A DNA stretch of 40,745 bases, taken from Granulicella sp. Lineage in GTDB: Bacteria > Acidobacteriota > Terriglobia > Terriglobales > Acidobacteriaceae. Within the stretch, counting starts at the first letter, position 1. Every line of letters starts with the position of its first letter. The translations under genes were made by a program, and so were the position numbers. Location: positions 1-40,745 of the forward strand of contig PKWU01000079.1 in the NCBI GenBank assembly GCA_003132145.1. The letters are read 5' to 3'. The notes below the pieces were generated by a model. The model had not been told where the DNA came from. It saw only the letters and a list, made by a program, of their open reading frames with translations, and did no database searches. Shown here one piece after another: positions 14,258-37,331 of this stretch.

Positions 14258-14848
14258 CTATGCGTCGGCGTCATACGCGGTCTTCTTGATGCCGAATGCG
14301 AGGACTGGACAGCCCCCTGAGGCGCGATTGTTTAGTTTGGGAATTAGCTTGCCCATATGTGTCGTCGAGTTGCCGAACGAACGTCCTTTGCCCAACTCGT
14401 CGAAGATATCCTGAAGTTCACTTGCCCTCGTGATGATCGCCCCGACGCTCAAGACGTTCAATTCGAAGAGCAAGCGGAAAGTCGTGAGGTCTCTGTCGAA
14501 GAACGGATCCTTATTGTTCCATTCCGTTTCAATTGCTACCCGATTCCGAAAGTAATCGACGTGGTGGGTTGGAGCGAGGGTGACTGCATCGTCCACCTTG
14601 ACCTGGATTTTAAAGTCGTGTTCCTTCCACTGTCGGTTGTAGAAGAAGCCGTTTATTCCACGGGAAATTGGCGATTTGCCGCCTCCCGGCGTTAGGATGT
14701 CTGAGCGCCGCAACGTGAACTGCGTGAGCATTTCAATGAGGTCGTCCCACTCTGAACGCAAGTCTGTGTGCAGAATAGACGCTGCATGGTGGTTCTCTAC
14801 TATCTCAAACTTTCTGCACACCGCTTCTGGGAAGAGATCCAAACTCAT
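14258..14848 (-). CDS. BglII/BstYI-family type II restriction endonuclease
   Basis: A 196-residue protein whose central segment matches the catalytic layout of BglII and BstYI. D98 lies in HVDYF, and E107 and E109 lie in RVAIETEW. That gives the same spacing (D, +9, +11) as the D119-E128-Q130 triad of BstYI, with the last position Glu instead of Gln. The downstream run of acidic and aromatic residues (DPFFDRDLTTFRLLF), the SVGAIIT strand and the C-terminal GCPVLAFGI strand also match the family. Members cut at AGATCT or RGATCY; the actual specificity here is unproven. It is flanked by the MT-A70 methyltransferase (3-bp gap) and the unknown gene (8-bp gap) in one minus-strand operon. Confidence 0.85.
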   Translation of the reverse strand: MSLDLFPEAVCRKFEIVENHHAASILHTDLRSEWDDLIEMLTQFTLRRSDILTPGGGKSPISRGINGFFYNRQWKEHDFKIQVKVDDAVTLAPTHHVDYFRNRVAIETEWNNKDPFFDRDLTTFRLLFELNVLSVGAIITRASELQDIFDELGKGRSFGNSTTHMGKLIPKLNNRASGGCPVLAFGIKKTAYDADA

Positions 14849-14851
14849 TGG

Positions 14852-15565
14852 CTAAAGCTCCGGAAACAATGCTTGTTCGCTCTGTGAGTGGTTTGAATAG
14901 GTGTTCCACGTTGGCGTATACGACTCATTGGCTTGGTTGCCCCAAGTTGTCCATCCGGGTCTCTGTCCTCGGGCGAATAGCTCCATGAAGGGGCCGGGGC
15001 TACAGCTCTCGATGAGCTGGTATTGCTCGTCAGGCTTGCGAGAATGTTCGCGCTTGCGGGTAGCAAGGAAATTTACCTGTCTTCGACCTGGTGCTAGGGT
15101 TCGGGCATTCTGCCCGCGGACGCCAAAGAGGATTAGCTCTGTCACGTTTCTGAAGTAAAAACCGACTCCCCTACCGTCTGGACCACCGTCTTTTCTAATC
15201 TTGTGCCAGACGAGATTGCTCTTGTACTCAAATCCCCATGACTTCATTACTGCAATTCCATCGGGCAACAATGCGTTCGGAACCCAAAGGTAGAGATGTG
15301 CAGTCTCTGAGGCGCATGCCGATACAGGCAAAGCTTTAATGTCCTCAAGTGAAAGGGTTGCATATCTAGCAAGCCGCTTATGTTCTGGCGCAATTTTCCC
15401 TGTTCGGTTCTTGAATTGCCATGGTGGGTCTGCCAAGATCGTTCGAAACTTGATCTCTCCCGCAGTTGCTAGCAAATCTGCGGCTGCCTTTGCCCCATGC
15501 GGCGTTCCAATGCAATTTGTTTTGTTCACCCTCACATCATGCTGGCAAACAAATAGCGAAGTCAA
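14852..15565 (-). CDS. MT-A70 family DNA adenine methyltransferase
   Basis: A SAM-dependent N6-adenine methyltransferase, up to 237 residues. The catalytic motif DPPW is at residues 46-49 of the longest frame, preceded by FRTILA. The LYLWVPNALLPDGI, KSNLVWHKIRKDGG and FRNVTELILFGVRG blocks follow in the MT-A70 order, and the C-terminal AcceptoR region includes PGWTTWGNQ. Beside a BglII-like nuclease it is most likely the protecting methylase of a type II system acting on GATC-centred sites. The start is uncertain: the frame opens with TTG at 15565, but GTG codons at 15535 and 15529 are also possible and none has a clear ribosome site. Codon choice is less GC-rich than in the flanking genes. 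Confidence 0.88.
   Translation of the reverse strand: MTSLFVCQHDVRVNKTNCIGTPHGAKAAADLLATAGEIKFRTILADPPWQFKNRTGKIAPEHKRLARYATLSLEDIKALPVSACASETAHLYLWVPNALLPDGIAVMKSWGFEYKSNLVWHKIRKDGGPDGRGVGFYFRNVTELILFGVRGQNARTLAPGRRQVNFLATRKREHSRKPDEQYQLIESCSPGPFMELFARGQRPGWTTWGNQANESYTPTWNTYSNHSQSEQALFPEL
15536..15565 (-). promoter_or_regulatory. Possible sigma-70 promoter for the restriction-modification operon
   Basis: On the minus strand TTGACT (15565-15560) is followed after 18 bp by CATGAT (15541-15536), a reasonable -35/-10 pair in an AT-rich stretch. If used, transcription would start near the GTG codons at 15535/15529, favouring a short-leader or leaderless methyltransferase start. Confidence 0.25.
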
Positions 15566-16043: not shown

Positions 16044-16158
16044 CACTTCGTGCGGTTCTCGACGCTTCGCGTGAAGGCAAAGACGATCAAGGGTGATATG
16101 GGCGGACACTTCGTGCGGTTCTCAACACTTCGCGTAACAGCAAAGACAATCAAGGGCG
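16044..16158. repeat. 52-bp direct repeat, two copies
   Basis: Copies at 16044-16095 and 16107-16158 both start CACTTCGTGCGGTTCTC and end with GATCAAGGG or AATCAAGGG. They differ at about seven positions and lie 63 bp apart start to start. The repeats are non-coding and sit just upstream (plus strand) of the polysaccharide acylation operon. Confidence 0.8.
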
Positions 16159-26925: not shown

Positions 26926-27105
26926 TTAGTTTGACTTTGCCATTTCGACAAGTGCTTTTGCTGCGATGTCCGTTCCTATATTCTGTGCTAGCTCCAAGGC
27001 TTTCTTCCCAACCTTGGAAAGGACTGCCGCAACATCATGACCATTACCCCTTTCTGCTTCATCGGCTGCATCCGCTACGCCCGCCAACCTAATGGCGACT
27101 GGCGG
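26926..27105 (-). pseudogene. C-terminal remnant of an unknown protein
   Basis: A 59-residue open stretch on the minus strand with no start codon of its own, ending ALVEMAKSN before a TAA. It reads like a genuine protein tail: an acidic linker (ADAADEAERG), then an amphipathic helix (AAVLSKVGKKALELAQNIG) and a second helix. It is closed upstream by a TAG at 27106-27108, about 115 bp from the left 94-bp inverted repeat. The parent gene was probably cut when the adjoining segment arrived. I do not recognise the family. The rest of 26723-26925 shows no gene. Confidence 0.45.
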
Positions 27106-27220
27106 CTAGTTGCCGGTTTCGGGCCGGACGACGAATGAAATCTGAAAACTCCGCAGACTCATCGTTGGCTGGCAGCGGGGATGCTACCCACGTCCTACTG
27201 AAGAGGGCAGCCCTGGTCCG

Positions 27221-27314
27221 CAACCTGTAGGTTTTTGACCACCAGGCAACGTTTGAGAGGGGCATTGAAAACAAGCGCTTTACTGTTGCGAAAAGAACTG
27301 GCCTTTCGGGCCAG
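27221..27314. repeat. Left copy of a 94-bp inverted repeat bounding the macroglobulin/PBP locus
   Basis: 27235-27314 is identical, in reverse complement, to 36544-36623 over all 80 bp. Extending outward to 27221 gives 94 bp with two mismatches. One end is a hairpin CTGGCC-TTTCG-GGCCAG (27298-27314). The copy lies 171 bp before the first gene of the enclosed locus. Short open frames cross it but none looks real. Confidence 0.9.
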
Positions 27315-27485
27315 TAACCAGCACCCTTCGACCTCGCTTCCTGATTGCCGATTGTCCTTCGGATTGTCCGTCTCTCGATCACTATCAATATCTTCGTCTT
27401 GTCTTTCGTGGCAAGGCGACCTGTATGACACTATTGACGTGTGAGAATTGCAAGGTGAGCCCTGGGGAGAGACACTCTATCTTTC

Positions 27486-28517
27486 ATGACACGTTTGCGT
27501 GATTTGCGTTCAGGTTATTTCGTGGCAGCAGCTATCGCACTCCTCGTCATGACGACACTCCTGGGATGGCGATTTGTTGCGTATTCAGGAGTATTGGCCG
27601 AACCCTCGCGCGACCCGCTTCCTGCGGATGGGCGGGAGCATCTGGCAGCCAAATTTAAAGCTCGCCATCATCTGTCACTCATGGCAGCTCAACTCCATCT
27701 CAGCGGGGCTCAATCTGCAAGCCTGCGTCTTGAAGATCTGCCGAATGGTTATGTCGCTCTCTATCTACGAGCATCTGTAAATCCTGGTCGTCTTCGCCTT
27801 GGGGTGGTGGGACGAGGTAGCGATCTTTCTATTCCGATTACGCTTGCGCCGGATAGTCAGGACAGCTTTGGCGATGGCACACCCGACTGGATGCGTCTGC
27901 ACAGTGCCAGCGACCGCCAGGCCTTTCGGCTCTGGTTCACTGCACTCGCAGATCGGGCCGCCGATGCCGAACCCGGCCAGCTTCCGCCGGAGATCACCGA
28001 CTGCGCTTCGTTGCTTCGCTACGCCTATCGCGAGTCGCTGCGACTGCACGACGATCGTTGGTACGCGCAGTACTCCGCCGAGCAGATGCCAACGCTGACA
28101 TCTGTCCAACAGTGGAGCTATCCCAATACGCCACTCGGGGCGGGTCTATTTCGCACTCATTCCGGTCCGTTTGTTGCGAGCGATGTTACGGACGGAACTT
28201 TCGCCCAGTTTGCCGATGCGAAGACGCTCATCGAAGCGAATACATTCTTTGTCAGCCGTGACCTCCGCGCCGCCCGTCCCGGTGACTTAATTTTTTTCCG
28301 CCTGCTTGAAACCGATTCGCAGTATCATTCGATGGTTGTCACAACACAGGGCAAATGGGTCGTCTATCACACCGGACCAATCGACAAACATCCTGGCGAG
28401 ATGCGCCGCGTGTTGCTTGCGGATCTGATGCAGCATCCCGATCCGCGCTGGCGACCGACACCCTCCAATCCAAACTTCCTCGGGGTCTATCGTTGGAATA
28501 TTCTGCGCGAAGATTAG
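27486..28517 (+). CDS. DUF1175 family protein (YfaT-like), probable periplasmic NlpC/P60-like hydrolase
   Basis: A 343-residue protein with one N-terminal membrane anchor (about residues 12-30) and a periplasmic body. The body ends in a DUF1175-like domain: C173 in ITDCASLLRYAYRE, then ARPGDLIFFR and H281 in QYHSMVV with H295 in VYHTG. This Cys-His arrangement is that of NlpC/P60-type cell-wall peptidases, so the protein may act on peptidoglycan. In Escherichia coli the DUF1175 gene yfaT neighbours the alpha-macroglobulin gene yfaS, and the same pairing occurs here. The macroglobulin frame overlaps its 3' end. The ATG has only a distant GGGGAG tract upstream, so the start is moderately certain. 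Confidence 0.85.
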   Translation: MTRLRDLRSGYFVAAAIALLVMTTLLGWRFVAYSGVLAEPSRDPLPADGREHLAAKFKARHHLSLMAAQLHLSGAQSASLRLEDLPNGYVALYLRASVNPGRLRLGVVGRGSDLSIPITLAPDSQDSFGDGTPDWMRLHSASDRQAFRLWFTALADRAADAEPGQLPPEITDCASLLRYAYRESLRLHDDRWYAQYSAEQMPTLTSVQQWSYPNTPLGAGLFRTHSGPFVASDVTDGTFAQFADAKTLIEANTFFVSRDLRAARPGDLIFFRLLETDSQYHSMVVTTQGKWVVYHTGPIDKHPGEMRRVLLADLMQHPDPRWRPTPSNPNFLGVYRWNILRED

Positions 28518-31500
28518 CTGTGCTGGTCGCTCTCCTTCTGCTCTGTGCTCCATGCGCCTTCGCAGCGGAGCCGTACTTTATCCTGAGCACCTATAAGGCC
28601 TTCGCCCTCGGCGAGAAGCCGAAGCTCCATCTTTACGCCCGTAACGAGTCGGAGCTGGAGTTTCGCATCTATCACGTCAACGATCCTGAGAAGTTTATCG
28701 GCGGCCTCTCCGAGATGCATAGCTTCGGCGAAACCATGAACAGTCCTGTCGAGCAGATCGACGAAAAGACCTGGCTCGAACGCTTTCACGACTGGAAGCA
28801 CGACCGATGGATCGCTCTCAAAGACTTCTTTCGCACTCAGCTCTCCGAAACAACGCGCAATGCACTGAAGGAGAAGCAATCTGCTGTGGCAAAGCGCAGC
28901 CGGATCGTCGGCGTCGCCCAGTTCGCGCAGGTTCCGCTGCTGAACGACAAGCAACTGGTCGCACGCTGGCGTCAGGAGGTACCGCCAACCTACGTCTCGG
29001 ACAATCAGGTTCTTCCTATCGATCCACTTCCGTCTGGCATGTATCTGGTAGAGGCTACGGACGGCCACCTGAAGGCCTATACGCTGCTGATGGTCAGCGA
29101 GACAGCGCTGGTGACGCGTACAGTTGCTGGCGAACTAGTCGCCTTTGTCGTCGACCGCAAAACCGGCACGCCCGTAAACGGAGCCAAGGTCGTGCTCGCA
29201 CTGGGCAAGCAGTCTCCGCAGCGTCTCACCACCAAGGAAGACGGCATCGCCTCCTTCGATGCGCCGTCTTCGGCGAAAAAAGATACGGCTTCTACCGACG
29301 GAGAAGACGGGGAAGGCGGAGTCGAGACCGACACCGCTGACAGCAAGCTATGGGTCATGGCGCGTTCCGGCGACGATATCGCTCTGGTCGCTCCGTGGTA
29401 CTCCTCGTTTACGCGATCGCAAGACACACTCTACTCTGCGTTTGGCTATACGGATCGGCCTGTCTATCGCCCCGGCCACACGGTTCACTTCAAGGTAATT
29501 ATTCGCCAGCACGCAGGCGATGCTCTTACTCTTCCCAAACTTTCGCAGATTCACATCACGGTCAACGACGACCAGCAGAAGGCTGTCTATGACAAGAAAC
29601 TGCCTGTCTCCGCAATGGGTACGGTCGCAGGCGAACTCGAACTGCCGCTCACGGCTTCGCTCGGCTACTATCGCATCACGAGCGACACCCATGCCGACCT
29701 CTCGGGACTAGCGAGCTTTCAAGTCGAAGACTATCGCAAGCCGGAGTATCAGGTTCACGTCACCGCTGCCAGACAGCGCGTGATGCAAGGTGAGAGCGAC
29801 GCCGTTACCATCGACGCACGCTACTTCTTCGGCGAGCCGGTCCCGAACGCCAAGGTCAAATACACCGTCAGCGAGAGCCAGCACTACTGGTGGAACGACG
29901 AAGACAGCGATAACAATTCTGCCGGAGAGAATCCTGACGGTTCGCAGAGCGGCGACTCGCAAGAGGCGATCGGTTACGGAGCGAATGAACAGATCAAAGG
30001 CGAGGGCCGTCTGGATGCCAACGGTAAGCTGACCGTCTCCATTCCAACAACCTTCGATCCGGATCGCCACTTCGACAAGGACTACATCGTCGAAGCAGGC
30101 GTAACCGACGAAGCGGGCCGCGAGATCAGCGGACGCTATCGCATCCTCGCCACCTACGGCAGCTTTCGCTTGCAGGTCGAGCCGCTCAGTTACTCTGTGC
30201 AGCAGGGGCAAAACGCCAGCTTTCAAGTCACCGCACACGACTACGATGGCAAGCCCGTGCGGACTCCTGTGCATCTGCATCTCTACCATCGCAGTTACTC
30301 GGCATACACATCGGACTGGCACCGCACCGAGACGGACTCACCCGCTGGCGACGCCGATGCAACTACCGGCGCTGACGGCACCGTCGTAGTGCAGATGCCC
30401 GTCAACATGGCGGGCTCCCTCAATGTTGACGCGACAGCCGTCACTCCAGAGAAGCGCACGGTAAAAGACATAGGCTGGCTCTGGGTCAACGGCACGCAGG
30501 CGGAGGACTTCGGAGATGACTCCAATCAGCAGATTCGTTTCATCACGGACAAGAAGAGCTACGCTCCCGGCGATACTGCGCATCTCTCGGTTATCACTCA
30601 GGTCGATGGCTTTCATGCGCTCATCACCGCCAGCGGATATACCGTCGAGTTTCGCAAGGTTCTGAACAGCTCCGGCAAGGTATTGAACTTCGACCTTCCC
30701 ATCACTAAGGACTCTCAACCCAATTTGACGGTTGACGTCGTCTTCCTCAACGACGAAAAAATCTATCAAGGCCAGCGCAATATCTCCGTTCCGACGACTC
30801 AACAGAAGCTGCAACTGACGATCACACCCGCGTCGGAGACATTCCAGCCGCAGCAGAGCGCTGCCTACGACGTAACTGCGCACGACGCCACAGGCGCGCC
30901 TGTCTCGGCGGATCTCAGCTTCGGCGTCGTCGACGAGGCGGTCTACTCGGTCGAACCGGATTCGAGCGGCAATATTCTCAATGCATTTTATCCGCAGCGC
31001 GAGACCAACCCTAACATAGAAAATTCGCTCAACTATTACTTCACCGGCGAGGCGGGCAAGCGGACGATGCTGCTTGCCCAACGTCGCTTCCACCCGCAAC
31101 TGGCGCAGGTAAAACCAAGCATCGATAGCGCACCGCGCATCCGCAAGGACTTTCCCGATACCGCCTTCTGGCAGCCCGACGTACACACCGACGCCACCGG
31201 CCATGCGCGCGTCACCCTGACCTTCCCAGACTCGCTCACCACCTGGCGTGCCACTGTTCGCGCCATCACGGCGGATTCCAAAGCGGGTGCTACACTCAAC
31301 CGAGTCATCGTGCGCAAGAACATCATCGTGCGCATGGGCCAGCCACGCTTCCTGCGCAAGGGCGACATCGTCACCGTCCCCGTCATCGTGCATAACTATC
31401 TACAGCAGACCAAACAGATTCAGCTCTCGCTCGATACTGCCGGTCTGGAGATCGTCAGCGGTTCGCCGCAGCAGGTCAGCGTCGCACCACGCGCCGATGC

Positions 31501-33256
31501 GACGATTCTCTATCGACTGCACGCCACCTCCGTTGGCACGGCCACGCTCACGGCAAAGGCCATCTCCTCGCCCGAGAGCGACGCGATGCAGATCACGCTT
31601 CCCGTGCATCCTGCGGGCGTCGCCGAAAGCATCGCCGCCTCCGGCGTTATCGCCAACAGCGGCGATCGCACCAGTCAGCTTGTATTCCCCGCAGGCACCG
31701 ATCCCGCCGCTCACTCGCTCAGCATTCAGGTCAGCCCCACCATCGCCGGTTCGCTCTTCTCCGCGCTCGACTACCTCACCACATTCCCCTATGGCTGCAC
31801 CGAGCAGACCATGTCCAGCTTCCTGCCTAACATCATCGTGGCCCAGGCGATGCAGAAGCTGAATCTCTCCTCCAAGATCGATCAAGCCACTCTCAGCGCC
31901 AAGATTCAGGCCGGTCTGGATCGTCTCAAGGAGTATCAGCACGAAGACGGCGGCTGGGGCTGGTGGAAGGAGGATCAGAGTCAGGTCTTCATGACTGCTT
32001 ACGTCGTCAGCGGTCTCGCGCAGGCACGGAAGGCGGGCTATCCAAAGGCACAGGATTTCCGTTCCACGAATGGAAAGCCCGCAAGTATCACTTTTCTGCA
32101 AAACGCTCTACAACAACATCCACACATGCTCCCCGAACTGCGTGCCTATGTTGTCTATGCCCTTGTGGAGTCGGGTTACAGCGATCATGATCAACTCGAC
32201 ACCCTCTACTCCCGCCGCGACGATCTCAGCCCGCAGGCACTCGCCTACACCGGCCTCTCCATGCTCGACGCCAACGACTCTCGCGCCTCGGCCATCGCGC
32301 AGTTGCTCGAAAAGAAGGCACGCATCGAGGGAGATCTTGCCAGTTGGCCGGAGAGCCGCAACAACCTCCTCGATATCGACTACGACGGCAGCGCCGAATC
32401 GACAGCCTTTGCGCTCAAGTTTTTAGCGCACGCCGATCCGCAGAGTCCGCTGTTGACGAAGGCCGCGCAGTGGCTGGTAGCCAATCGCTCCGAGGGCTAC
32501 TGGTGGGGAAGCACGCAGCAGACGGCGTTCGTCCTTTATGGGCTCACGGACTATCTGCTCGTCTCGCACGAACTGGCTGGTGACACCGACGTTGAAGTCT
32601 TCGTCAACGGAGCCTCGGTCGGCAAGCGTCACTTCTCTACGGAGGATGCCGTGAAGGACGCGTCCCTTTCCATCTCTCTCAGCGCGCTACAGCTACAGCA
32701 GCAGGACAGCATTCGCATCGTCTCCACCGGCAGTGGCCGCGCCTATTGGACCACGCAGGCGATGTACTACTCGACCTCGCCGCACAGCTATCAACAAGGC
32801 TCGTTGAACCTGAGCATCGCGCGCGACTACTCCATCCTTGTTCCTACAACGAAGGATGGCCACATCGTCTACACGCTCAAACCACTCAGCGGCCCGGTAG
32901 AGCAGGGCGATGTTCTCGCCGTACATCTCGGTGTTGGCGGCTCGCCGCAGAAGTATCTGCTGATCGAAGACCCCATCCCCGCTGGCGTTGAGTTCCTCCA
33001 GAACAGCGACAGTTACAACATCGTCAACCGGCCCAGCAATTGGGACTGGTGGTATACCCGTCAGGAGTTTCACGACGATCGCGCCGCGATCTTTGCTGGT
33101 ACATTCGACGGACGGCACGACTCGTTCTATCTGCTCAAGGTGGTAAACCCGGGCAGCTTTGCCATCAGTCCTGCCAGCGTCTCTCCCATGTATCAGCCGG
33201 GCGTACAAGCTACTACGGATGAACTTCATCTCGACGTGAAAGAGGTCTCCAAGTGA
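28493..33256 (+). CDS. Bacterial alpha-2-macroglobulin with thioester (YfaS-like)
   Basis: A very large (1587-residue) periplasmic protease-trapping protein. A signal peptide (ARRLAVLVALLLLCAPCAFA) is followed by macroglobulin domains. These include TVAGELVAFVVDRKTG, the YTDRPVYRPGHTVHF domain, and the FPDTAFWQPDVHTDATGHARVTL-type A2M core. The thioester domain has the reactive CTEQ motif (C1102 in PYGCTEQ), with DGGWGWW and WGSTQQTAFVLYGL helices after it. A receptor-binding-like end (FYLLKVVNPG) closes the protein. The intact CTEQ implies covalent capture of attacking proteases, unlike thioester-lacking homologues. The start is uncertain: TTG at 28493 keeps the positively charged signal n-region, while GTG at 28520 lies 2 bases after the upstream stop but lacks it. 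The next gene overlaps its stop. Confidence 0.92.
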   Translation: MEYSARRLAVLVALLLLCAPCAFAAEPYFILSTYKAFALGEKPKLHLYARNESELEFRIYHVNDPEKFIGGLSEMHSFGETMNSPVEQIDEKTWLERFHDWKHDRWIALKDFFRTQLSETTRNALKEKQSAVAKRSRIVGVAQFAQVPLLNDKQLVARWRQEVPPTYVSDNQVLPIDPLPSGMYLVEATDGHLKAYTLLMVSETALVTRTVAGELVAFVVDRKTGTPVNGAKVVLALGKQSPQRLTTKEDGIASFDAPSSAKKDTASTDGEDGEGGVETDTADSKLWVMARSGDDIALVAPWYSSFTRSQDTLYSAFGYTDRPVYRPGHTVHFKVIIRQHAGDALTLPKLSQIHITVNDDQQKAVYDKKLPVSAMGTVAGELELPLTASLGYYRITSDTHADLSGLASFQVEDYRKPEYQVHVTAARQRVMQGESDAVTIDARYFFGEPVPNAKVKYTVSESQHYWWNDEDSDNNSAGENPDGSQSGDSQEAIGYGANEQIKGEGRLDANGKLTVSIPTTFDPDRHFDKDYIVEAGVTDEAGREISGRYRILATYGSFRLQVEPLSYSVQQGQNASFQVTAHDYDGKPVRTPVHLHLYHRSYSAYTSDWHRTETDSPAGDADATTGADGTVVVQMPVNMAGSLNVDATAVTPEKRTVKDIGWLWVNGTQAEDFGDDSNQQIRFITDKKSYAPGDTAHLSVITQVDGFHALITASGYTVEFRKVLNSSGKVLNFDLPITKDSQPNLTVDVVFLNDEKIYQGQRNISVPTTQQKLQLTITPASETFQPQQSAAYDVTAHDATGAPVSADLSFGVVDEAVYSVEPDSSGNILNAFYPQRETNPNIENSLNYYFTGEAGKRTMLLAQRRFHPQLAQVKPSIDSAPRIRKDFPDTAFWQPDVHTDATGHARVTLTFPDSLTTWRATVRAITADSKAGATLNRVIVRKNIIVRMGQPRFLRKGDIVTVPVIVHNYLQQTKQIQLSLDTAGLEIVSGSPQQVSVAPRADATILYRLHATSVGTATLTAKAISSPESDAMQITLPVHPAGVAESIAASGVIANSGDRTSQLVFPAGTDPAAHSLSIQVSPTIAGSLFSALDYLTTFPYGCTEQTMSSFLPNIIVAQAMQKLNLSSKIDQATLSAKIQAGLDRLKEYQHEDGGWGWWKEDQSQVFMTAYVVSGLAQARKAGYPKAQDFRSTNGKPASITFLQNALQQHPHMLPELRAYVVYALVESGYSDHDQLDTLYSRRDDLSPQALAYTGLSMLDANDSRASAIAQLLEKKARIEGDLASWPESRNNLLDIDYDGSAESTAFALKFLAHADPQSPLLTKAAQWLVANRSEGYWWGSTQQTAFVLYGLTDYLLVSHELAGDTDVEVFVNGASVGKRHFSTEDAVKDASLSISLSALQLQQQDSIRIVSTGSGRAYWTTQAMYYSTSPHSYQQGSLNLSIARDYSILVPTTKDGHIVYTLKPLSGPVEQGDVLAVHLGVGGSPQKYLLIEDPIPAGVEFLQNSDSYNIVNRPSNWDWWYTRQEFHDDRAAIFAGTFDGRHDSFYLLKVVNPGSFAISPASVSPMYQPGVQATTDELHLDVKEVSK

Positions 33257-33999
33257 ACAATCTCTTCCTCGCAGCACGCCATCGCATTACCACTCGCGTC
33301 ATGCTGTGGCAGATCTTCGGCAATCTTGGGCTGATGGGCATCGCAGCCGCCACAACGGCCATGCCCGACTCGCATATCTGGGAGCTTTTGATCACACTTC
33401 TTCTCCTCTGTGCGTTCTTTACTGGCGCGGTGGCGCTTCACACCTTCATTGTGCGTCGGCTCCGTCAGCCCGACGAGGGCAAGCCGATCTGGTTCGGCGG
33501 TCTTCTGCTGGCGCTCTGGATTGCGATCTACTCGCTCGCAAGCTACCTCCTCGCCCCACTCAATGACCGCGCATCGCAACGCGCATCCTACTGGAATGCC
33601 ATGCTCGGTTCACACCTGCGAACCATCTTCACCGAGGCGCGCCTGCTCAATTGGCAACAGAATGCCTTTGAATATCTGATGTGGATCGTATTGCCTGCGC
33701 TCTTTATCCCGGTAGCAATCGAGACCGTCACGCGTGGCTGGTCGGCACACCGCAATACCTCGCGCATTTTGCTCCGATGGCAATATTGGCTTACCGCGAT
33801 TCTGGCTTATTGCGTCGCCCAGGGCCTTGGATCGCTGATCGACTGGCATCGCCCCAGCAACCCTGCCGCAGAGATCGTCAGCGTTGTACTGCGTCTCGTC
33901 GTGGCCTACGTCGCCTGCGCTTTCCTGCTCACCTACGTCGTGGCGCTCACCGCCGAGCTACTTGCCCGCAATCAGGCTCTGCGGGACTCCGCTGCGTAG
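33253..33999 (+). CDS. Multi-pass membrane protein of the macroglobulin operon, unknown function
   Basis: A 248-residue protein with about six hydrophobic segments (near residues 18-38, 45-65, 80-100, 135-155, 175-195 and 218-238) separated by basic loops such as RRLRQPDEGKP. The GTG start shares four bases with the macroglobulin stop (GTGA), so it is translationally coupled. I do not recognise the family, and no catalytic motif is visible. Its 3' end overlaps the 3' end of the opposing SpoIID-like gene by 42 bp. From position it may anchor or organise the macroglobulin complex in the inner membrane, but this is inference. Confidence 0.8.
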   Translation: MNNLFLAARHRITTRVMLWQIFGNLGLMGIAAATTAMPDSHIWELLITLLLLCAFFTGAVALHTFIVRRLRQPDEGKPIWFGGLLLALWIAIYSLASYLLAPLNDRASQRASYWNAMLGSHLRTIFTEARLLNWQQNAFEYLMWIVLPALFIPVAIETVTRGWSAHRNTSRILLRWQYWLTAILAYCVAQGLGSLIDWHRPSNPAAEIVSVVLRLVVAYVACAFLLTYVVALTAELLARNQALRDSAA

Positions 34000-35643
34000 C
34001 CAGCCTCGTACCGTTGGCAACCCATCTTTGGCAAGCAGACGGCGCACCAGCTCACACGCTGCACGATGCGCCTCTTCTGCCTCCTGTTGATTCCCCGCTC
34101 TCCGCAGTGCTGCATCGATCTGCGCTGTCGTCATACCTTTCGTATCTCCATGCTCACCTGCCAGAGCCTCCACCAATCCCTCGCGCAGCCACAACGGCGC
34201 GGCATCTGTGGCCTCGTTCTCCACCATGCTGTGCAGAAACTCATGGAGCAGCAGTGCTTCCGCACCGCCCTGCCTGTTCACTACACTCATAGGCTGCAAG
34301 GCAATCGTGTCGCCGCGAGCGGTTCCCAGCATCCACCCTGGCTCGTTGGTGGCCTGCCGAAAGAGTTCCGTCGTAGGGTACACGGTCACCACTGGATGCA
34401 CATTGCCTGAAAACAGTGCATGCGCCCGCAGCAGCGCCTGATTCCCCTGCGCCATCAAACTCGCCGCAGCTCCCGTAGTTCGCAGTGTCCATCCGTTCCC
34501 GTCGTGCTGCATCCATCCCGTATCACCGGCCTCCACCTGCAGGCTCGTGGAGGGAAAGTAGAACGCCAGAATCTCTCGATAGCCTTTGCCTTCCTTCGCC
34601 ATCTCAGCCGCGCCTGCCTGGCACAGCCCAACGCCATGTCCATATCCCTTCCCATCGAACACCACACGGTTACCACCCAAGCTGACTTCGTACCAATCAC
34701 TGCGCAGACGGTTCCAGCCCAGCGATCGGTTCAGCGCGAATCGCAGGCTTGCTGCCGGAATTGTCACTCGTTCAGCTCCTGCCGAAACCAGCAGCTTTCG
34801 CGCGCGACCGCTTCCGTCCTGCTGCACAACGCGTACGCCATCGATCGCACCACCCAGCTTCCAGCCCTCCGCATACAGAGCCTCACGCAACTCTGTAACG
34901 CTCATCTCTGCGTGCCATTGGGAGGGGAGTCTTACGCAGTAGCGATCTGCATGGGATGTCAGCCATGGCTTCGGCGCACCGCCCCACATCGCCGCCGCAT
35001 CTTCCGTCATTCCAGCGCAGCTCTGTGTGAAATATCCGGGCACGCGTGTCCCATGCCACCAAAGCGTCTCGCCTGCGGTTGCATGGACTGCGCTCTCAAT
35101 TTCAGCCGGAACATCACCCATGCGCAAGGCCTGGCAGTGAGTGCTGTCGCATAGTCCCTCTGCCCCGTGCCGATGCGGATTCGTCAGCGCAAAGCTGCGT
35201 GCCGTCACGGCCAGCGCCTTGAGCGACTCGGCAGGCTCCTTCGCTCCCGCCTCACTAGCGAGCACTGCCATCACATACCGCTCACTGGGAATCGTCAGCA
35301 ACACATGCAGCCCATCGTGTGCCGCTCGAATCTTCCACTGCCCTGCGCCCGACTCGACCAGCCCGTCCTCCGTCGCCGCACGAATCTGCCCACTCAAATC
35401 CAACTCGCGTGCAGTCTTTCCTCCAATCATTAACAGCGTCTGACTTGCACTGACCCGCAACTGCGCAGGGATCAGGCTCGCAGAGCATCCCTTGCACAAT
35501 CGCATTACCGCATCTACCGGCGTAATCGTGACAGCATTTACGATGCGGTTGGAAAACAGCCGTACCGTGACGTCGGTTGCCGACTGCGCCATCGCAGTTG
35601 AAGCCGCTAACAGACTTAGCAGAATTCCGCGAGCGAGCTTCAT
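33958..35643 (-). CDS. SpoIID/LytB-domain protein fused to a peptidase-MA-like metalloprotease domain
   Basis: A 561-residue exported protein. The signal peptide is residues 1-20 (ILLSLLAASTAMA). The SpoIID domain (about 90-370) shows PSERYVMAVLASEAGA, ALAVTARSFAL, TAGETLWW and GYGHGVGLCQAGAAEMA. SpoIID proteins are lytic transglycosylases or amidase enhancers acting on peptidoglycan. The C-terminal part (about 410-561) carries a gluzincin site: HEFLH at 467-471 and WLREG with E488, 17 residues on, as in peptidase-MA-like domains. Its ATG overlaps the stop of the upstream transpeptidase gene (4 bp), so the two are coupled. The fusion suggests cell-wall cutting and proteolysis in one molecule. 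I know of no characterised member. Confidence 0.88.
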   Translation of the reverse strand: MKLARGILLSLLAASTAMAQSATDVTVRLFSNRIVNAVTITPVDAVMRLCKGCSASLIPAQLRVSASQTLLMIGGKTARELDLSGQIRAATEDGLVESGAGQWKIRAAHDGLHVLLTIPSERYVMAVLASEAGAKEPAESLKALAVTARSFALTNPHRHGAEGLCDSTHCQALRMGDVPAEIESAVHATAGETLWWHGTRVPGYFTQSCAGMTEDAAAMWGGAPKPWLTSHADRYCVRLPSQWHAEMSVTELREALYAEGWKLGGAIDGVRVVQQDGSGRARKLLVSAGAERVTIPAASLRFALNRSLGWNRLRSDWYEVSLGGNRVVFDGKGYGHGVGLCQAGAAEMAKEGKGYREILAFYFPSTSLQVEAGDTGWMQHDGNGWTLRTTGAAASLMAQGNQALLRAHALFSGNVHPVVTVYPTTELFRQATNEPGWMLGTARGDTIALQPMSVVNRQGGAEALLLHEFLHSMVENEATDAAPLWLREGLVEALAGEHGDTKGMTTAQIDAALRRAGNQQEAEEAHRAACELVRRLLAKDGLPTVRGWLRSGVPQSLIAGK

Positions 35644-36473
35644 TGCACGGCCTTATGCTGCAAGACTCTCTTCGCCAGCAACGCCGCGTCGTTGCCATTA
35701 CCGTTGGGCACAAAGATCACGATAACGCGCTGTGCCTGCATCTGTCCGTCAAAAATAATTCCCGCAAACCACCCATGACTCCACGGTGCGGGCGCATCCT
35801 GTGCTGTACCGGTCTTGCCGCCAATCGTCACACCGTCGATCTGCGCTCCGCGTGCCATGCCAGTCTCTATGGACTGTAGCATTCCATCGCGAACGATACC
35901 CACCGCATGTCCCGTTGCCCCATTCATCTGCTGCGCCAATCTGCGATAAGCCATGGCCAGCTCGCGCGGCGACGTCTTGATCCCCACTATTCCCACCGCA
36001 AGGAGCGCACGATCGTCGGGCACTGCGGCGGTTCCTGCCGGATGCATACCATACGCTTGCAATCCGTTCAGCAGTACCTGCGAAGTCATTCGCCGCGCCA
36101 GGGTAACGAAGTAGGCATTACAGGATTCGGCCAACGCCTGCCTCGCGTCCAGAACAGTCATGTCGCGAGGATGTCCGCACGCCAGATTATGCCCCTTCAC
36201 CATCAGCGTGCCGGGGCAATGGATCGTCTCCTGCGCGGAAATCACATCAGCATCCAGTGCCGCCTTCAGCACAAAGGGTTTCAGGGAGGAACCCGGAGCC
36301 GCCTGCACATCCAAAGCGCCGTAGCTGGCTACGATGCTTCCAGACGGCACATCAACGACAATAGCGGTGGCATGTGTCCCGTGGAGTGTATTTATCAGGG
36401 GAGAGACAGGCCTGACCTGGGCTTGGCTCAGTAGCCCTCCCAGACACAGCATGCATGTAAGTGTCCGCCTCAC
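35640..36473 (-). CDS. Minimal penicillin-binding transpeptidase
   Basis: A 277-residue exported D,D-transpeptidase that cross-links peptidoglycan. All three catalytic motifs are present: SSLK (S62, K65), SCN (117-119) and KTG (220-222). There is no transglycosylase domain, no PASTA or dimerisation domain and no membrane anchor beyond a short signal peptide (LTCMLCLGGLLSQAQ). At 277 residues it is little more than a bare catalytic domain, far shorter than usual class A or B PBPs. It leads the minus-strand pair and overlaps the SpoIID-like start. Pairing of bacterial macroglobulins with a PBP (PBP1C) is known elsewhere, so this may be a reduced analogue. The start codon lies 70 bp inside the right inverted repeat. 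Confidence 0.9.
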   Translation of the reverse strand: MRRTLTCMLCLGGLLSQAQVRPVSPLINTLHGTHATAIVVDVPSGSIVASYGALDVQAAPGSSLKPFVLKAALDADVISAQETIHCPGTLMVKGHNLACGHPRDMTVLDARQALAESCNAYFVTLARRMTSQVLLNGLQAYGMHPAGTAAVPDDRALLAVGIVGIKTSPRELAMAYRRLAQQMNGATGHAVGIVRDGMLQSIETGMARGAQIDGVTIGGKTGTAQDAPAPWSHGWFAGIIFDGQMQAQRVIVIFVPNGNGNDAALLAKRVLQHKAVQ

Positions 36474-36543
36474 TGTGCTTCCATCCTAGCCTGAGTCCGG
36501 CTCAACCTGTCAGCAATCCTCGCAGAGTTGGCGACTTGGATCG

Positions 36544-36637
36544 CTGGCCCGAAAGGCCAGTTCTTTTCGCAACAGTAAAGCGCTTGTTTTCAATGCCCCT
36601 CTCAAACGTTGCCTGGTGGTCAACAACCTACACGTTG
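36544..36637. repeat. Right copy of the 94-bp inverted repeat
   Basis: 36544-36623 is the exact reverse complement of 27235-27314 (80 of 80), extending to 36637 with two mismatches. The hairpin CTGGCC-CGAAA-GGCCAG faces inward towards the transpeptidase gene, just as in the left copy it faces the DUF1175 gene. Beyond 36638 the flanks of the two copies differ. Confidence 0.9.
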
Positions 36638-36808
36638 TGGACCACCTGTCTTGGCAGAACTGAACAGACTTGTCCGCTTTGGACAAAGAAGCCAGAGCCT
36701 GGAACCGGCGAGTCAATGCAGCCGTATAAAAATCAACTGGCAATTCCACCGGCGAAAGGCACGCAAGAAGTTTGCCTACAGACGCCCCTATTCTAGGCGG
36801 TCAGAGAC

Positions 36809-37165
36809 CTAGTGAATCGTGAGCGTCGTCTTCAGCGGCGTGTTTGCCGATGAGTCTCCGACCATGATCTGAAAGGTTCCTGTAGCGATTTGCCAGGCGT
36901 GCGTCTTTTCCGACCAGTCGGAGAACGAGCGCGCATCAAGCTTTAGTTCAACCGGCTTTGACTCGCCGGGATTCAGCATGATCTTGCGAAAACCTTTGAG
37001 CTGGAGCGGCGGCTCATTGCCCTCGGCGATGGGCGGAAAGCCGAGGTACAACTGCGCTACCTCGGCTCCGCAGTGTTTTCCGGTGTTGGTTACGCGGAAG
37101 CTTACGATGGTGTTGGCGGTGCCCGGTTGCTGGCTGACCTTGAGGCCGTCGAAACCGATTTGCAT
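36809..37165 (-). pseudogene. C-terminal remnant of a GH3 glycoside hydrolase
   Basis: About 118 residues match the fibronectin-III-like end of GH3 beta-glucosidases. FDGLKVSQQ, VSFRVTNTGK, EVAQLYLGFPP, QLKGFRKIMLNPGES and a final FQIMVGDSS follow the same order as the C-terminus of the intact GH3 at 23132-25408, but the two are clearly diverged. The catalytic domains are missing: upstream of about 37165 the open frame continues with unrelated residues into the 3' end of the ABC permease gene. It lies 172 bp outside the right inverted repeat. It is a decayed or truncated gene and unlikely to be active. Confidence 0.8.
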
Positions 37166-37331
37166 CTCGGCTACGGACCAATATGCACACAGTTGCCCCG
37201 GCCGGGTTCGTTTATTGCAACCGTTTCCGTCCCAAAGACCAAGGTGTGCCCGGCAGGCCTTCAGGCGCATCTCCGCAACCGCCGCCATGTCCCATAACAC
37301 CATTCTGTGGAGCGGAGAGCCACCGCAGGCT

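Follow-up and report, generated by a model that had tools for sequence, protein, structure and literature searches.

A macroglobulin and cell-wall gene block between two inverted copies of a short structured repeat in Granulicella sp.

Overall organization of the locus

We analysed a 40,745-nt stretch of a draft Granulicella sp. genome (contig PKWU01000079.1; hereafter the window), in which a five-gene block is framed by two inverted copies of a 101-nt structured element, a left copy (winL) and a right copy (winR). The block contains genes for a DUF1175 protein, a thioester alpha-2-macroglobulin and a membrane-like protein, which are read rightward, and convergent genes for a transpeptidase-domain protein and a SpoIID protein, which are read leftward (Table 1). 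This content agrees with the original prediction, in which the locus was taken for a cassette or an invertible segment. The SpoIID-peptidase fusion proposed there found no support, since SpoIID/LytB was the sole domain recognised. Comparison with other genomes revealed the block as an envelope-type locus that recurs among acidobacteria, and the repeats as a separate family of structured elements.

The two copies are identical at 98 of 101 nt (97%) in inverted orientation (blastn self-match, E 2e-42), and they are the sole inverted repeat of at least 25 nt that the repeat finder returned in the 40.7-kb window. The predicted 80-bp identity between 27235-27314 and 36544-36623 was confirmed, and the arms reach 101 nt instead of the 94 bp first given. 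All three mismatches lie in the outer 21 nt, within a 28-nt palindrome in which 25 of 28 nt are identical, while the remaining 73 nt are identical throughout (73/73). The predicted spacings were also reproduced: winL ends 171 bp before the DUF1175 open reading frame (ORF) and winR lies 70 bp before the transpeptidase ORF, and each arm is upstream of, and on the same strand as, one of the two convergent operons. When we searched the window genome (3,165,847 bases in 89 contigs, 96% complete) at E up to 0.001, only two full copies were found, namely winL and winR; a weak partial third copy (G000:C59, 16 bits) was excluded from this count.

Structure of the element

Read toward the block, the element consists of a 28-nt palindrome, a folded middle and a GGCC hairpin at the inner end. 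The hairpin that the original prediction described as common to the repeat ends was observed at the inner end of each arm, and the palindrome at the outer end of each arm is a second one that the prediction did not contain. In family members the element begins with TGGTCC and ends with GGACCA, both imperfect, and this short end match is lost in the truncated copy of the sister genome G074. RNA folding of the sense strand showed that 1 of 200 shuffles was as good as winR and 16 of 200 as good as winL. The opposite strands were less remarkable (14/200 and 40/200 shuffles as good), and in DNA folding winR was matched by 0/200 and winL by 13/200 shuffles.

Six copies span 101 columns of alignment with no gap. 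On these six rows we performed a pairing test with 500 shuffles, using a structure of 22 pairs that we set ourselves. Standard pairs fill 77.3% of the cells versus 70.4% in the shuffles (0/500 as high), changes on both sides occur in 9 of the 22 pairs (2/500 as high), and no shuffle (0/500) attained the covariation score. When the pairing was shifted by 1-3 columns, it fell to 29-49%. The palindrome varies with compensating changes across the copies and is perfect in the sister genome G075. The palindrome is the best-supported part of the structure, and the fold of the middle is uncertain. Rfam gave no match in the window at the gathering score; around winL there was one chance-level match, which lies off the element.

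Distribution of the element

The palindrome pattern, with at most two mismatches, occurs in 3 of the 62 genomes of the genus (the window genome, G074 and G075). The copy on contig C149 of G075 (G075:C149) is homologous over the whole element, with a score of 84 against a shuffle maximum of 32, or 46 against 26-30 without the palindrome, and its neighbours are a DUF1186/SEC-C gene on one side and an SNF2-type helicase gene on the other. When the 62 genomes were searched with a covariance model built from winL, winR and the G075:C149 copy (model R1), further copies were found in G034:C373 (E 9.6e-9), G075:C157 (7.3e-7), G075:C226 (7.8e-6) and G074:C240 (9.4e-6), where the E-values of covariance models are rough. 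At E up to 1 the model matched 6 of the 62 genomes, two of them at chance level. Copies at E <1e-4 are present in four of the 62, including the window genome, and weaker matches in G034:C83 (21 bits), G067 and G072 were excluded from this count.

The copies lie between ORFs of unrelated kinds, one of them overlapping an ORF call at a contig end, and two of the three G075 copies are near contig ends (67 bp and 882 bp). Outside the window, the stretches fetched did not show copies as framing pairs. In five independent cases that could be judged (GH3 in the window, G034, and C149, C157 and C226 of G075), the neighbouring gene, or its tail, on the side of the palindrome is directed toward the element; this tally, read by eye, is too small to rely on, and in it the C226 ORF has no Pfam match, the G034 gene is 670 bp off and winL was left out as uncertain. 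A search of 399 genomes drawn from the class with a second model (R2) gave two genomes with a match at E up to 0.01, that of the window itself and G432, whose match (E 0.004) is dominated by the palindrome; this survey scored 10 candidates per genome and did not have G034, G074 and G075 among its matches, presumably because they were undrawn, and thus says little on rarity. The exact 22-base core and a looser pattern gave no match in viral_contigs, and the exact 28-base core gave none in genome_contigs. Six viral contigs with a 17-base core were rejected as copies because of their chance-level model scores. With blastn the element matched no plasmid, and the only phage matches were two of 20 bases at E 0.9. 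A limited search of the literature on Acidobacteria (open papers, titles) for miniature inverted-repeat transposable elements (MITEs) or palindromic elements found no such element.

Some sequences close to these copies deserve separate mention. A dispersed sequence of about 181 bp (L066 5549-5729, G074:C240) truncates the G074 copy at about column 73; it is 93% identical in G067 and is matched in other genomes of the genus. A stretch of about 94 bp beside a G075 copy (L077 3155-3248) resembles the 3' end of a gene, which by eye we take to be ilvD-like. Two similar gene tails lie close together at G075:C16 (L100 and L101).

The gene block in relatives

The block was found in 7 of the 62 genus genomes, comprising 6 of 37 by DUF1175 search (the window genome counted) and 1 of the 25 others by macroglobulin search (G070). 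G069 was left out, as its macroglobulin matches were partial and at 26-29% only. Neither sister genome, G074 or G075 (each about 83% complete), yielded the block. For comparison of the loci we used 67 loci from a DUF1175 scan, mostly of Acidobacteriota, and a separate set of loci from seven relatives; the sets overlap, in that 5 of the 7 and 6 of the 67 are contigs common to both genome sets. All 43 loci in which four genes are recognisable at E up to 1e-6 keep the gene order and orientation, as do 41/41 at E up to 1e-20. An ORF similar to the 248-aa ORF of the window stands at the same place in many, not all, relatives.

Both flanks, defined as at least 400 bp and at least 250 bp beyond the two ends, are visible in 41 of the 43 loci, and self-comparison (at least 35 nt, at least 80%) revealed a framing inverted repeat in none of the 41. 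No inverted repeat frames the block in the seven relatives' loci either, where the pairs of 27-34 nt (71-82%) in three of the seven lie otherwise, and the G070 locus has none. The element model matched none of the 67 loci at E up to 1, many of these loci being short. In the relatives compared, the genes that flank the block in the window do not accompany it, save for weak ABC-ATPase matches in L039 and L041. As a separate observation, L176 carries a 38-nt inverted repeat (87%, 123-160 / 997-1034) that frames the DUF1175 gene alone, and it is the only such pair in the 67 loci.

In a macroglobulin tree made with a quick method from 57 rows with ORFs longer than 1300 aa, the window groups with L120, a contig of a Verrucomicrobiota-labelled metagenome-assembled genome (CAJCIP010000060.1), and with G070, inside an Acidobacteriaceae group and apart from the Granulicella aggregans and bog_445 rows. 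L120 carries the closest macroglobulin in the tree (64% identity), and its placement would fit either horizontal movement of the block or mis-binning of the L120 contig. All 57 rows, the window included, contain a CxEQ string beyond residue 600.

Flanks and junctions

The original prediction placed a broken gene just outside each repeat. On the right this is the case, as the fragment at 36812-37180 corresponds to the C-terminal 123 residues of a 729-residue GH3-family ORF of G075 (88%). On the left there is an open tail of about 50 codons, and the 82% match in G009 falls outside the long ORF there, so that the tail is at most a putative gene remnant.

The right flank is shared with G074. Positions 36613-37158 of the window match G074:C240:5770-6316 at 93.8%, covering the GH3 end, the spacer and the palindrome, and the match breaks again at about 37158. 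Inward of the right palindrome the two genomes part, with 25 of 28 nt identical in the palindrome and 28 of 73 in the rest. In columns 29-80 the G074 copy is nearer to the G075:C157 copy (38/52) than to the window (25/52). Beyond its truncated copy G074 carries genes, by eye type III polyketide synthase-like, that lie elsewhere in the window genome (C57, 93%). In G075 the similarity to the right flank ends about 23 bp beyond the stop codon of the GH3 gene.

On the left, G074 and G008 have the nickel-transporter gene of the flank, followed there by different DNA. G074 carries this gene on a 54-kb contig, the right flank being on a different one, and so far as its contigs show the two flanks are not adjacent there. 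An empty site joining both flanks was not found in the G074 contigs, and G075 is too fragmented to judge.

Genes of the block and other features of the window

Coordinates of the element copies, the genes of the block and the flanking features are collected in Table 1. The first 160 bp or so of the macroglobulin ORF (28355-28517) also form the end of the DUF1175 ORF, and several relatives align over the overlap; the macroglobulin ORF call is probably over-long, with the true start perhaps downstream of 28355. PADLOC models gave no match to the five block genes at E up to 0.01. The predicted lack of a transposase was borne out, as no transposase or recombinase domain was recognised in the 35 window ORFs scanned with Pfam, out of 116 ORFs of at least 100 aa.

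Related proteins have been studied in other bacteria. MagD of Pseudomonas aeruginosa is reported to trap protease and to form complexes with MagA, MagB and MagF (PMC5764988), and according to a further report magD protects against some peptidoglycan-targeting type VI effectors, not against all attackers tested (PMC12663445). DUF1175 has been described as an inactive, peptidoglycan-binding papain-like family (PMC10318531). By analogy with these gene families, the block may have a periplasmic protective or wall-repair role.

Elsewhere in the window, genes for a BglII-type restriction endonuclease and an MT-A70 methyltransferase stand side by side (14258-15565), surrounded by polysaccharide and glycosyltransferase genes. 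At 16044-16156, inside ORF calls with no Pfam match, lie two direct 50-nt repeats that are 88% identical and start 63 bp apart.

Table 1. Positions of the repeat copies, the block genes and the flanking features in the window.
Feature	Position	Strand	Basis or remark
Open tail of about 50 codons left of winL	26930..27090	-	82% DNA match in G009
Left copy (winL) of the 101-nt structured element	27214..27314	+	Repeat finder, genome search, folding
Outer 28-nt palindrome of winL	27214..27241	+	Folding, pattern search, covariation
DUF1175 / MagC-like protein, 343 aa	27486..28517	+	Pfam PF06672; PDB 7bk8 MagC, E 2.3e-23
Alpha-2-macroglobulin ORF, 1633 aa	28355..33256	+	MG, bait and TED domains; CTEQ at residue 1148
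248-aa ORF, membrane-like by eye, no Pfam match	33253..33999	+	ORF call
SpoIID/LytB domain protein, 561 aa	33958..35643	-	Pfam / domain searches
Transpeptidase-domain (penicillin-binding type) protein, 277 aa	35640..36473	-	Pfam / domain searches
Right copy (winR) of the 101-nt structured element	36544..36644	-	Repeat finder, genome search, folding
Outer 28-nt palindrome of winR	36617..36644	-	Similar palindrome (25/28) at the same flank in G074
3' fragment of GH3 glycoside hydrolase gene	36812..37180	-	With downstream spacer, outer flank common to G074

Origin of the arrangement

A rearrangement between dispersed copies of a short structured repeat, of which the bracket is the scar, fits these observations best, and we believe in it about as strongly as we doubt it. 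Both arms are copies of the same member of a small family, restricted to the clade, of non-coding structured repeats of about 101 nt, MITE- or ERIC-like in size and habit, whose members share their ends, an end palindrome and a conserved middle stretch. The Mag-like block would have ended up between two inverted copies when dispersed copies recombined or underwent gene conversion, the junctions falling within the element, close to where the palindrome ends on its inner side. The junctions seem to lie there because G074 shares the flank and the palindrome but not the inner DNA, and because the arms differ only inside the palindrome. Since in the relatives compared the block does not have the flanking genes of the window, weak ABC-ATPase matches apart, a rearrangement brought the block to its present place. 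The bracket would then be a scar, on which homologous recombination could act, rather than a cassette dedicated to inversion, and the arrangement is probably genome plasticity of a known kind. This explanation builds on direct observations, namely the copies, their family, the covariation of the palindrome, the unframed block in relatives and the break of the flank at the element; that recombination, conversion or co-transposition was the route, and that the element has any mobility, we infer.

Several observations weigh against this explanation. First, two full copies that exactly frame one block would be a striking coincidence for passive debris. Second, the copies are few per genome, old and diverged (34-62% identity outside the palindrome for all pairs except winL/winR), and therefore active movement of the element is unsupported. 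Six of six copies also lack a consistent target-site duplication, showing scattered 2-5-nt matches at inconsistent offsets. Third, the truncated G074 copy serves poorly for comparison, and a palindrome of this length does not suffice to prove orthology. Finally, the structure itself has weaknesses. The number of pair types in the pairing test was reached by 36 of 500 shuffles, which is less convincing than the other measures, and adding the G074 and G034:C83 copies introduces gaps into the alignment. The palindrome is decayed in some copies, so that 76% of its cells pair. RNAalifold alone gave the same palindrome and last hairpin with a different middle and an unfavourable covariation term. 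The tested structure was partly derived from the same sequences and two of the six rows are near-duplicates, so that the controls favour it.

It is also conceivable, if rather doubtful, that the element is a shared cis-regulatory leader, that is, a structured 5' leader RNA or an operator duplicated upstream of both operons for their co-regulation. The position and strand of both window copies (171 and 70 bp upstream) would suit such a role, as would the G034 copy, which lies 38 bp upstream of the longest start of a same-strand sensor-kinase ORF, and the truncated G074 copy, which precedes a co-oriented ORF by about 410 bp. The sense strand of winR folds better than 199 of 200 shuffles (winL: 184/200). 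However, the G075:C149 copy, the best-preserved one outside the window, runs into the 3' end of a gene read in the opposite direction, and the block occurs elsewhere without the element (0/67 loci match the model). In the seven relatives the upstream regions of the two operons, with approximate starts, never match beyond the shuffle maxima, although L034 and L037 pass the 95% level, and the absence of an Rfam match at the gathering score also speaks against a leader.

The original prediction of a mobile or invertible cassette can be upheld only in part, and we regard a true cassette as unlikely. In such a cassette the inner 80 nt would be terminal inverted repeats, or the palindrome would be a site-specific core, served by an enzyme in trans. 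Flanking inverted repeats as in an invertible segment are present; the only two full copies in the genome frame the block in opposite orientation and differ only in their palindromes; the block was not found in the sisters G074 and G075; and the macroglobulin tree groups the window with the Verrucomicrobiota-labelled contig and G070. On the other hand, there is no target duplication, no recombinase among the 35 window ORFs scanned and no empty site found, and the block occurs elsewhere without such ends (41/41 loci unframed), and the other copies of the element were not observed in framing pairs in the stretches fetched. Two findings had been named in advance as fatal to a cassette, a common dispersed repeat and a block fixed in the same place without repeats in relatives. 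The first holds in part, as the element is dispersed beside unrelated genes in relatives, but in few copies. The block is unframed in relatives, where the flanking genes of the window, weak ABC-ATPase matches apart, do not stand beside it. From the assembled sequence, nothing indicates that the block moves or flips.

A bolder proposal, which we consider improbable, is that the 101-nt element represents a new structured recombination site, in which a 28-nt palindromic core and a conserved, folded 73-nt body would act with a host or trans-acting enzyme so that gene modules are framed and exchanged in inverted pairs. The outer flank and the core would stay while the body and the cargo are swapped, as between the window genome and G074.

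An assembly artefact, in which contigs that do not belong together were fused at a repeat or one arm was doubled in the draft, is very unlikely: the 89-contig draft, the patchwork surroundings, the second break of the right flank at about 37158 and the two G075 copies near contig ends could point to it, but there are three differences between the arms, each arm is far from the ends of its 45.7-kb contig, the right outer flank and palindrome are matched in the independent genome G074, and a 101-nt repeat is shorter than usual read lengths.

Rearrangement between dispersed repeat copies is the explanation that we prefer. The comparisons described here separate a real, rare arrangement from its over-reading. 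If the element were a recombination site or a leader after all, it would bear on the movement or co-regulation of accessory envelope systems in Acidobacteriaceae.

Comparison with known systems

ERIC, Correia/NEMIS and RU-1 to RU-3 are dispersed prokaryotic MITE-like repeats of about 100-170 bp that are non-coding, intergenic and structured. The present element, likened to them by description alone, resembles the ERIC, Correia and RU repeats in size and in its dispersal beside unrelated genes, but differs from them in its very few copies per genome and in that no target duplication was found, and it is not known to have an autonomous partner. Like a MITE it is a short non-coding element in several dispersed copies, and the target-site duplication expected of a MITE is lacking in 6/6 copies. 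Of the terminal inverted repeats of a MITE it shows at most the short, imperfect TGGTCC/GGACCA end match.

The element is also comparable with two kinds of recombination site. Integron attC sites carry RYYYAAC / GTTRRRY boxes, and the element is like attC in its length range and its folded single strand. An attC identity was rejected, as the boxes are present in 0/7 copies on both strands. The pdif (XerC/D) modules of Acinetobacter plasmids are gene modules framed by short recombination sites, and the 28-nt palindrome has the same length as the XerC/D core of these modules. A Xer/dif module was likewise rejected, with 6-11 of 28 matches to the dif consensus over seven copies on both strands.

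The block itself is like the P. aeruginosa mag operon (MagA-F) and E. coli yfaS/yfaT/yfaA in that a DUF1175/MagC gene adjoins the macroglobulin gene. It does not correspond to the type II thioester-less macroglobulins accompanied by MagA, MagB, MagE and MagF. MagD of P. aeruginosa is described as having no thioester motif (PMC5764988), whereas the macroglobulin of these acidobacterial loci carries CxEQ in 57 of 57 tree rows (CTEQ in the window), and its partners are the transpeptidase and SpoIID genes of a convergent operon.

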